NCBI RefSeq assembly: GCF_014696065.1
Contig: NZ_JACJPL010000023.1
Span: 1 to 64,000, forward strand
Source of the DNA: Leptolyngbya sp. FACHB-261
GTDB taxonomy: Bacteria; Cyanobacteriota; Cyanobacteriia; FACHB-261
Direction of reading: 5' to 3'
DNA length: 64,000 bases
Positions 6,718 to 53,373 of the stretch are shown piece after piece (position 1 is the stretch's first letter; every line of letters begins with the position of its first letter). The notes beneath the pieces are model-generated. The model was not told the DNA's origin and did not search any database. It was given only the letters and a program-made list of their open reading frames with translations. A program made the translations under genes and the position numbers.

Positions 6718-7617
6718 TTAGGAATGGACAGTACCATCCGGCATTTGAGCACCGGTTAAATTAGCGCCCCGCAAATCTACATTGGGCATGTAGGCACCAC
6801 TGAGGTCTGCATCGGCAAGATTAGCTTCGCTGAGCATTGCCATACTGAGATGGGCGCAGCAGAGGTTAGCGCCGCTCAAGCTGGCACGGTGCAAGCTGGC
6901 CTGTCTGAGGTTGGCTTCGCTCAGGTCAGCTCCGTTGAGGTTCGCCCGCCGCAGATCTGCTTCTCGCAGAATTGCCAGACTTAGATCGGCTCGTACTAAG
7001 TCAGTTTCACTGAGATTTGCTTTTTTCAAATTAGCGTTGCTGAGATCGGCACCGCTGAGATTAGCCCGTCGCAAGTTGACCCCACTCAGATTGACGCCGC
7101 TGAGATTGGCGCCAACCAAGTTGGCACCTACCAGGTTGGCACCTACCAGGTTGGTGTGGCTGAGATCAACATCGATTAGGTTAGCCTCGCTCAAGTTAGC
7201 GCCAATCAGGTTAGCCTTTCGCAAGTCGGCTCCATTCAGGTTGGCCTGGCGCAGATCGGCACCGCTAAGGTTCGTTGCCGTGAGATTGGCACCCACTAGA
7301 CCTGCGCCGCTTAAGTTGGCACTGCTCAGATCAGCCTCACTCAGGTCGGCTTCGGTCATATCCGCTTGGCGCAAGCTTGCACGCCTCAGCAGAGCTTGTC
7401 GCAGAACTGCTCGGCGCAGGGTAGCCCGTCGCAAGCTTGCCAAACTCAAGTCGCTACCGCTGAGATCAGCGCCGTTCAGGTTCGCCTGATTCAAGTTTGC
7501 CCGGCTCAGCTTAGTGCCAATTAGGCAGACCAAACTCAGGTTCGCCCAGCTCAGAGACACTCCTGGGAAAGTGCGCTCTCCAGATGCATACCGTCTCAGT
7601 AGGTCTTCAGCTGACAT
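6718..7617 (-). CDS. pentapeptide-repeat protein
   Basis: After a roughly 35-residue N-terminal cap (MSAEDLLRRYASGERTFPGVSL), almost the whole 299-residue protein consists of A(D/N)LxX pentapeptide repeats, more than fifty of them. These fold as a right-handed quadrilateral beta-helix. It has no signal peptide or membrane segment and is probably cytoplasmic. Cyanobacterial genomes are rich in such proteins and most have no known function. A few pentapeptide proteins elsewhere mimic DNA and protect gyrase, but nothing here shows that role. A stretch near 7110-7160 contains almost identical 15-bp codon blocks, consistent with growth by slippage or duplication. Confidence 0.9.
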   Translation of the reverse strand: MSAEDLLRRYASGERTFPGVSLSWANLSLVCLIGTKLSRANLNQANLNGADLSGSDLSLASLRRATLRRAVLRQALLRRASLRQADMTEADLSEADLSSANLSGAGLVGANLTATNLSGADLRQANLNGADLRKANLIGANLSEANLIDVDLSHTNLVGANLVGANLVGANLSGVNLSGVNLRRANLSGADLSNANLKKANLSETDLVRADLSLAILREADLRRANLNGADLSEANLRQASLHRASLSGANLCCAHLSMAMLSEANLADADLSGAYMPNVDLRGANLTGAQMPDGTVHS

Positions 7618-46303: not shown

Positions 46304-46558
46304 TTAGGGAGTTGTTGGTGTACCAGGAGTTGCAGCGCCTGGGCTTGTTGTGTCACCTGTTATACCACCTGTACCCGTACCATCAACACCTACACCTGGG
46401 CTTGTTGTAGTGCCACCTGTTGTGCCGCCAGTACCATCGGTACCCGTACCTCCACCTGTACCGCTCTGCCCGCAGCCAGACAAAGCCAAGGGCAAAATCG
46501 TTAAAATCAGGGCAAAAACACCAGTCCAAACAGTTTTGGACAAATCAGAAGCCTTCAT
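46304..46558 (-). CDS. Gly/Thr-rich small lipoprotein
   Basis: From ATG 46558 (with AGAGGA eight bases upstream) comes an 84-residue protein: MKASDLSKTVWTGVFALILT, the lipobox LALSGC, and then a tail almost entirely of Gly, Thr, Ser, Asp and Pro (GTGGGTGTDGTGGTTGG and similar). The leader resembles those of small cyanobacterial WGxxGxxG-type proteins, but that motif is absent here. It would be lipid-anchored with a disordered tail. An upstream ATG at 46618 would spoil the signal peptide. Function is unknown. Confidence 0.65.
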   Translation of the reverse strand: MKASDLSKTVWTGVFALILTILPLALSGCGQSGTGGGTGTDGTGGTTGGTTTSPGVGVDGTGTGGITGDTTSPGAATPGTPTTP

Positions 46559-46873
46559 GGCTGTAGTTCCTCTAAAAATTATGGACTCTAGCAGGCTCTG
46601 AACATTTAAGAACATCAAGCCTTTAATTCCCTCTTTCCAAAAGCTACTTGTTACCGATCTAGCGCCCCACCAAAAGCTAGGGTTCTGATTAAGCCCGATT
46701 GTGCCCGCGAAGACAAAAACTTCTATTGCTATTTACAAAACTCTGCTCTACAAAGCATATTGCCCTGTACACTACCTATTAAATTACTAATAACTTGCAA
46801 TCGCCTTTGGCAGCTTACAAGTAAGCTGCCAAAAACATTAACCTGATCAACGAGATCAGGCTAACCCGAGCAT
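46559..46873. other. intergenic region with two hairpins, no gene
   Basis: This stretch separates two reverse-strand genes. It holds the terminator at 46842-46860 and a second inverted repeat, TTTGGCAGCTTA / TAAGCTGCCAAA (46806-46833, four-base loop), about ten bases beyond it. AT-rich sequence closer to the lipoprotein gene probably includes its promoter, which I could not place. Confidence 0.5.
46842..46860 (-). terminator. terminator after the 46874 gene
   Basis: On the reverse strand CCTGATC / GATCAGG form a 7-bp stem with a five-base loop, followed by TTAATGTTTTT. It lies about 14 bases beyond the stop of the gene ending at 46874, a good intrinsic terminator. A second 12-bp hairpin follows at 46806-46833. 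Confidence 0.7.
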
Positions 46874-48905: not shown

Positions 48906-49000
48906 GAAATCTCACGGCCAGATTGTTGACACTCAAACAATACTGGTGGTAACTTAAGAGTTGAGGAAGGTTCCTCAGCAAATAGTTTGAGGTAAAAGAT

Positions 49001-49327
49001 ATGAACACTGTACTTAAAACCGCTGCTCTTGCCGCTGTCGTCACGATTTCTGTTGCGACCACAGCTGATTGGGTAACCGCTAGCCGCAGTCCTTCAGTTG
49101 AGCATATGCTCACAGCTACGCTGCCCAAGGATGTTGTAGACCACATGCTGACGGCTGAAGTACCAAGTCAGGTCCGCAACCACATGCTGACGGCTGAAAT
49201 CCCAGCTAAAATTCGTGAGCGTATGTTGACGGCTGAAATACCAAGTCAGGTCCGCGATCACATGCTGACCGCTTCAGCCTCTCCTAGGGACAATGGCTAC
49301 TACATCGATCTGATTCAAAGAGCCTAG
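49001..49327 (+). CDS. secreted protein of five 13-residue repeats
   Basis: The 108-residue protein has an N-terminal signal-like segment (MNTVLKTAALAAVVTISVAT, about 1-28), followed by five tandem 13-residue units (residues 35-99) of consensus HMLTAEIPSQVRD: HMLTATLPKDVVD, HMLTAEVPSQVRN, HMLTAEIPAKIRE, RMLTAEIPSQVRD and a diverged last unit HMLTASASPRDNG. It ends YYIDLIQRA. At DNA level the units are 39 bp and nearly identical in places. The start has a GAGG-type site upstream and a good terminator follows. I know no family with this repeat. Each unit could form a short amphipathic helix with a Pro break; function is unknown. Confidence 0.7.
   Translation: MNTVLKTAALAAVVTISVATTADWVTASRSPSVEHMLTATLPKDVVDHMLTAEVPSQVRNHMLTAEIPAKIRERMLTAEIPSQVRDHMLTASASPRDNGYYIDLIQRA
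49103..49297 (+). repeat. five 39-bp tandem coding repeats
   Basis: Units start at 49103, 49142, 49181, 49220 and 49259. Units 2 and 4 share the stretch ACGGCTGAA and CCAAGTCAGGTCCGC almost base for base, which suggests recent duplication; the first and last units have drifted. Confidence 0.8.
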
Positions 49328-49398
49328 TTTGGTTTAATAGCTACAGTAGGTTGCTAGTTTGCTGTAGCTTAAATTAGGTTTTGTATTTGAATTGATTG

Positions 49399-49431
49399 GC
49401 AGAGCCCTACTGTTTTCGGCTAGGGCTTTGC
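49399..49431 (+). terminator. terminator after the repeat-protein gene
   Basis: GCAGAGCCCTA and TAGGGCTTTGC pair over 11 bp (one G-U) around an 11-base loop and are followed by TAATTTAAATTTG. It is a convincing intrinsic terminator about 70 bases past the stop. Confidence 0.7.
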
Positions 49432-49566
49432 TAATTTAAATTTGTCCGTTTCCCTTAAAATCTTCGAGTTGCCAGTGCCAAAACTGCCACTTTAGAGCAC
49501 TGTTCTGAGATATCTGCAATCGAGTGCCTGAGTTGGGCTCAGGTGCCTGACTTGAAGAACCTTAAA

Positions 49567-52794: not shown

Positions 52795-53373
52795 ATGAGC
52801 CAGGAAAACACTAAGGCCATCACCCAAGAGTTGAAAGTTCAAGCCCTGATTCTGGGCAGTTCCGTCGCCATCTTCTGGCTCCTAGAGCTGGCGGATCTGT
52901 TTGTCTTTGGCGGTTCGCTCGACCTTTATGGCATTCGTCCCCACAGCTTGCTTGGTTTGCGGGGCATCCTGTTTGCGCCTTTTCTGCATGGGGGCATGGG
53001 GCATCTAATTGCCAATACGGTTCCTTTCGTGGTCCTGGGCTGGCTCACGATGCTGCACCGCACCCGAGACTTTTTTGTGGTGACGGTGGTGACTCAGTTG
53101 GTCAGTGGCTTTGGGGTTTGGCTCTTCGGCTCGCCCAACTCTATTCACATTGGAGCCAGTGGCCTGATTTTCGGCTACCTCGGCTTTTTGCTGCTGCGCG
53201 GCTATTTCGAGCGACGACTAGGCTCGATCCTGGTGTCGCTGGTAGTTGGTATTCTCTATGGCAGCCTGGTTTGGGGTGTCCTGCCCTCAAGTTTTGGTAT
53301 TTCCTGGCAGGGGCACCTGTTTGGCTTTTTAGGGGGGGTATTGGCGGCTCGCCTACTGGCTCGCCGCTCCTAA
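52795..53373 (+). CDS. rhomboid family intramembrane serine protease
   Basis: The 192-residue protein has six predicted membrane helices. Active-site elements are intact: HGGMGHLIANTVPFVVLGW (oxyanion His/Asn region), GASGLIFGYLGFL with the catalytic Ser, and WQGHLFGFLGG with the catalytic His. Rhomboids cut membrane proteins within the bilayer. The ATG follows a short AGG motif. It is convergent with queF, with only 25 bp between the stops. Confidence 0.93.
   Translation: MSQENTKAITQELKVQALILGSSVAIFWLLELADLFVFGGSLDLYGIRPHSLLGLRGILFAPFLHGGMGHLIANTVPFVVLGWLTMLHRTRDFFVVTVVTQLVSGFGVWLFGSPNSIHIGASGLIFGYLGFLLLRGYFERRLGSILVSLVVGILYGSLVWGVLPSSFGISWQGHLFGFLGGVLAARLLARRS

Follow-up and report, generated by a model that had tools for sequence, protein, structure and literature searches.

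An exported-looking protein built from 13-residue units

Does the repetitive open reading frame at 49001-49327 (+) encode a genuine exported protein, and what might such a protein do? The window analyzed here is a 64,000-nucleotide stretch of Leptolyngbya sp. FACHB-261 (contig NZ_JACJPL010000023.1). Direct reading gave a 108-residue protein whose frame, start and stop agree with those of an earlier sequence-only reading, and the signal-like leader claimed there is present at residues 1 to ca. 27. In the alignment of the relatives described below, this type of leader has a hydrophobic core and an AQA end, and no GG. The gene and its product contain the following features:

49001-49327 (+): exported-looking repeat protein of 108 amino acids (ORF reading; alignment with 11 relatives)
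49001-49081 (+): signal-like leader, residues 1 to ca. 27, ending in AQA in most paralogues; cleavage site approximate
49103-49297 (+): five 13-residue units in the HMLTA register of the earlier reading, residues 35-99 (translation and lag analysis)
49121-49276 (+): four full units in the IP register, LPKDVVDHMLTAE, VPSQVRNHMLTAE, IPAKIRERMLTAE and IPSQVRDHMLTAS (unit parsing)
49277-49324 (+): C-terminal tail ASPRDNGYYIDLIQRA, common to most paralogues as ASPExNGYYTGLIQQA
49395-49440 (+): stem-loop, likely the transcription terminator proposed earlier; plausible from its folding energy of -25.5 kcal/mol but absent from the list of a simple scanner

The protein shows a 13-residue periodicity far beyond chance. 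At lag 13, 28 of 53 positions are identical, compared with a best value of 13 over 25 lags across 5000 shuffles. In the HMLTA register the units read, in order, HMLTATLPKDVVD, HMLTAEVPSQVRN, HMLTAEIPAKIRE, RMLTAEIPSQVRD and HMLTASASPRDNG, and Tandem Repeats Finder reports a 39-bp array of 3.5 copies at 49139-49273 (score 158). Units 2-4 had been described as nearly identical in protein and partly identical in DNA. Pairwise differences at 3-5 of 13 residues make the first wording somewhat strong, and the closest pair in DNA, 49145-49195 and 49223-49273 (51 bp at 90%), is not one of adjacent units. The mature protein is acidic, with a net charge of -1.9, and the gene encodes four HM pairs. A single-sequence AlphaFold model places one helix in each unit at low confidence; with a mean pLDDT of 42.8 the model is too unreliable to support either a fold or multivalency. 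Elsewhere in the window, 46304-46618 (-) encodes an exported-looking 104-residue protein that combines a lipobox-like LSGCG with a low-complexity tail rich in Gly and Thr and matches LptM only below threshold, and tandem repeats of 15 bp and 30 bp at 7076-7253 possibly belong to a pentapeptide-repeat gene.

Thirteen paralogues share one plan

The window gene belongs to a paralogue family scattered over many contigs of its own genome, which the earlier reading missed, as it did the common leader and the DUF305-edge module described below. Searches of this genome (6.95 Mb, 36 contigs) returned about a dozen further loci, mostly at E values of 1e-18 to 1e-9, and genes with the same plan number 13 including the window gene. 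All frames are intact, with one copy truncated by a contig end. The shared plan comprises a signal-like leader usually ending in AQA, the 13-residue units, often a spacer (SAGVIGPSDSQYDVRNLQAA) and a tail (SASPEDNGYYTGLIQQA). Between 1 and 7 units are found per gene and occur in two flavours, IPxQVRDHMLTAx, which is also the consensus, and IPEKIRERFETAx. Three paralogues terminate at ...VETHMLTA, which replaces the tail. Of 12 members, 11 have a mature protein of net negative charge, and Cys is absent from the mature proteins. The tail was also considered as a copy of the GPSD spacer, which is not claimed at a shuffle p of 0.06.

Several more distant genes retain parts of this plan. A relative on contig C31, which does not carry the common upstream region, contains six HMLTA motifs in a serine/asparagine-rich chain with spacers and no regular 13-mer; the motif rather than a rigid solenoid therefore looks conserved. 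Looser exported relatives on contigs C1, C13 and C20 have the leader type and the GPSD spacer in common with the family. In addition, a 45-residue exported ORF on C1 (locus L122, 1310-1549; ca. 181.8-182.0 kb) lies behind a decayed family leader and is perhaps a dying fourteenth member.

The 13-residue unit is under purifying selection

Substitution ratios indicate that the 13-mer is a selected protein element under strong purifying selection. Pairwise dN/dS values (Nei-Gojobori, own script) have a median of 0.14 for the genes (31 pairs) and, by part in eight genes, amount to 0.03-0.07 for the units, 0.12 for the spacer and 0.20 for the signal peptide. Gene conversion could reduce divergence, but synonymous change would then fall too. 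Among 48 parsed units, A12 is present in all, T11 in 47, P2 in 45 and R6 in 43. The residue following T11-A12 is variable, Arg occupies residue 8 in 16/48 units, and Leu, Phe or Ile is found at residue 9 in 33/48. The low ratios bear out the suggestion that the unit is duplicated and under selection. Loss of the frame in relatives, with no conservation at the protein level, is contradicted at the level of paralogues, where the frame is kept at a dN/dS of ca. 0.14.

A common promoter-like leader precedes all family members

Approximately 90 nt preceding the start codon are conserved in 13/13 genes with a mean column identity of 83%; DNA upstream of this leader is not conserved between paralogues. 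The leader contains TTGACA and TAnnTT separated by 17-18 bp, a GAGG ribosome-binding site and inverted boxes (CAGACTGTT and AACAGTCTG). In the window, these elements are located as follows:

48919-48927 (+): 5' arm of the inverted box, CAGATTGTT, family consensus CAGACTGTT (alignment of 13 paralogues)
48926-48931 (+): -35-like TTGACA, 18 bp ahead of the -10-like element (consensus match only)
48950-48955 (+): -10-like TAACTT (consensus match only); TACATT in 11/13 paralogues
48981-48989 (+): 3' arm of the inverted box, AATAGTTTG, family consensus AACAGTCTG, running up to the ribosome-binding site (alignment)
48989-48992 (+): ribosome-binding site GAGG, 8 nt ahead of the ATG and conserved in nearly all leaders

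TTGACA is present in 10 of the 13 leaders and the other three differ by one or two changes. The boxes form a 9-bp inverted repeat that is longer in some copies and could act as a DNA operator or as an RNA hairpin, two roles that are not separated because a search for compensatory double changes across the nine pairs of the boxes in 13 leaders found none. Applied to the 6.95-Mb genome, a sequence-only model of the leader recovered exactly the 13 family loci on the sense strand and no other convincing match, and a pattern search of the genome agreed. Viral contigs contain three 18-mers that resemble the leader; these lack HxLTA repeats in their vicinity and were set aside. Each of the 13 genes stands on its own behind this one promoter/leader, so they are probably switched on together, and a single regulator is predicted from the leader they share.

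No particular neighbour accompanies the genes. Genes for a MOSC-domain protein and a class-I glutamine amidotransferase precede the window gene, whose leader begins ca. 80 bp past the stop of the amidotransferase gene. In an ORF survey of the 13 loci, with part of the neighbours profile-searched, no neighbouring gene family was common to all copies and no constant receptor, protease or transporter gene adjoined them, as would be expected of a structural or binding protein that works alone. Close to the copies on contigs C33, C16 and C30 is a large gene with relatives among the hypothetical proteins of many cyanobacterial plasmids. A plasmid location is therefore probable for several copies; the contigs are not closed. 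A Rhomboid-family protein (PF01694), an intramembrane protease candidate, is encoded at 52795-53373 (+) of the window, 3.5 kb from the gene, and a link between the two is unsupported. On contig C36, a long CRISPR-like direct-repeat array with a period of ca. 70 bp (locus L038, 12376-15964) is found ca. 4 kb from one paralogue.

Distribution and relation to described families

A profile search of 387 other genomes of the class, a sequence search of 95 other genomes and a search of all 36 genomes of one order yielded no convincing relative. The same holds for phages and for plasmids searched by protein and by DNA; weak matches on E. coli plasmids (E 0.1, ca. 46 unannotated residues) were taken as chance. 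Peptide-pattern scans of GTDB contigs, carried out twice, and of IMG/VR, both insensitive as exact short peptides are needed, also returned no relative. Among the relatives searched, the closest TrpS shares only 73% identity, and the genomes searched include no other member of the host's order. As the lineage is isolated, the family may be absent elsewhere because close relatives are missing from the searches and not because it arose recently.

Database searches agree with the earlier view that no known family is involved, and the match to a described family that would have spoken against it did not appear. For the family, no match was accepted in Pfam, NCBIfam or PHROGs, with none in Pfam for the window protein, a PDB sequence search returned nothing and the motif was not found in the literature. 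DUF6374 (PF19901) reaches 26.3 bits (cut-off 25) in one paralogue through summed 13-residue matches, no single stretch of which passes, and does not match the window protein; a DUF7750 signal came from one short stretch counted repeatedly. Judged by sequence, this is an undescribed, lineage-restricted family of small, predicted secreted repeat proteins, whose unusual feature is a promoter signature exclusive to its 13 scattered members.

A fragment of a DUF305-type gene probably went into the making of part of the family. Within this genome, the start of DUF305 domains can be aligned with the GPSD spacer at a shuffle p of 0.0005-0.0015, for example GDLGPANAQYDLR in a protein on contig C26, and the edge motif GPSDxQYDxRxL occurs in 8 of 12 members tallied. 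A bridging protein on C20 gives a near-threshold DUF305 match (25.1 bits, cut-off 27). The 13-mers show no resemblance to DUF305 (shuffle p 0.60-0.996), and DUF305 (PF03713) is not among the Pfam matches of the 12 aligned members. Because the spacer is absent from the window gene, we do not file it as DUF305. A separate, lipoprotein-like gene (locus L148, contig C26:853439-853888) encodes two tandem DUF305 domains joined by a His/Met-rich linker, and its product is likely a copper-binding protein.

Possible functions of the repeat proteins

We tentatively interpret the genes as a lineage-restricted, co-expressed secreted family whose product would be an intact, multivalent and flexible protein of the periplasm, envelope or matrix. 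The leader peptide and the repeat argue for work outside the cytoplasm. Small Sec-type exported proteins would be made from genes sharing one promoter/leader and likely switched on together, and the mature chain, mostly hydrophilic and acidic, would stay intact in the periplasm, envelope or sheath/matrix. There, an HxLTA-centred motif displayed several times could bind one partner multivalently, and duplication, by altering gene and unit number, would tune dose and valency. Such an intact protein is slightly favoured over a precursor cut into peptides, mainly because constraint spans the whole 13-mer and the spacer, not the core alone, and no processing or receptor partner lies beside the genes. 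In a multi-copy precursor, cleavage at or close to the invariant Thr-Ala of every unit would release several copies of a short signalling peptide. A protease site is an equally possible reading of the nearly invariant T11-A12 and the variable residue after it, the C31 relative keeps the motif at variable spacing, and exported single- or multi-copy peptide precursors have precedents in PatX of Nostoc (PMC12756182) and the tandem Phr of Bacillus phages (PMC11343458). Three paralogues also end exactly at HMLTA, but these genes are closely related and may reflect one event. Overall, the precursor retains genuine support, but we regard cleavage into peptides as rather unlikely. It is distinctly unlikely that the genes, at least 13 in number and under one dedicated regulator, constitute a lineage-specific secreted signalling system in which an HxLTA-type peptide is released in several copies at a dose set by gene and unit number.

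The intact envelope or matrix protein also has to be weighed against readings that start from composition or genomic context. Extracytoplasmic binding of copper or silver by the His and Met of the repeat, in a derivative of DUF305/CopM, would fit the GPSDxQYDVRNL spacer of several paralogues, which matches the DUF305 edge (shuffle p <=0.0015), the near-threshold C20 protein and the HM pairs of the window gene, and has a precedent in CopM, an exported Cu(I)-binding DUF305 protein (PMC4335983). It appears very doubtful, however, as the window gene has no such spacer, the units are unlike DUF305 (p at least 0.60) and the family does not conserve the His and Met of the unit, as seen at residues 8 and 9. 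A membrane-active or antimicrobial amphipathic peptide, a role suggested by the sequence-only reading together with a check of helix amphipathicity, would agree with export, short repeats and the modelled helix of each unit. The helical hydrophobic moment of the units is nevertheless not above that of shuffles (p 0.41-0.75) and the mature proteins are mostly acidic, that of the window gene included, and free of Cys, which makes this role most improbable. Dispersed copies, some adjoining plasmid-type genes, with upstream DNA in common could also point to a selfish or non-coding repeat element whose frame is open by chance. Low dN/dS, intact frames and in-frame repeat changes contradict this, the homology of most pairs stops at the promoter and near the terminator, and no common element ends or transposase were seen, leaving such an element barely credible.

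Comparison with known systems

The 13 genes represent a protein family that is so far undescribed. Its internal evidence of function is good, namely many copies, a unique promoter signature and a strongly selected short unit, and it offers a compact setting in which to study how new secreted proteins are assembled from short modules and amplified in bacteria. DUF305/CopM proteins (PF03713) are likewise exported and their 13-residue edge motif, GPSDxQYDVRxL, is also found in several paralogues. The window gene differs from them in lacking the edge motif, the DUF305 core and the conserved His/Met set, and its 13-mer is unrelated. PatX of filamentous cyanobacteria is similarly a small Sec-exported cyanobacterial protein with a short motif. 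In contrast to PatX, which has HRGTGR and acts on HetR, the family carries HxLTA, repeated and present in 13 paralogues, and an HRGTGR-type motif is absent from all members. Tandem Phr propeptides of RRNPPA quorum sensing are also Sec-exported and contain a short sequence in several copies, but Phr genes adjoin their own receptor gene while no such partner was seen in the ORF survey of the 13 loci. EbfG1-4, which function in Synechococcus elongatus biofilm, are several small secreted cyanobacterial proteins acting together (PMC4997328). EbfG proteins use PteB and a double-glycine leader of the kind cleaved by a peptidase transporter, whereas the leader of the family is signal-peptidase-like (AQA) and its proteins are repeat-built.
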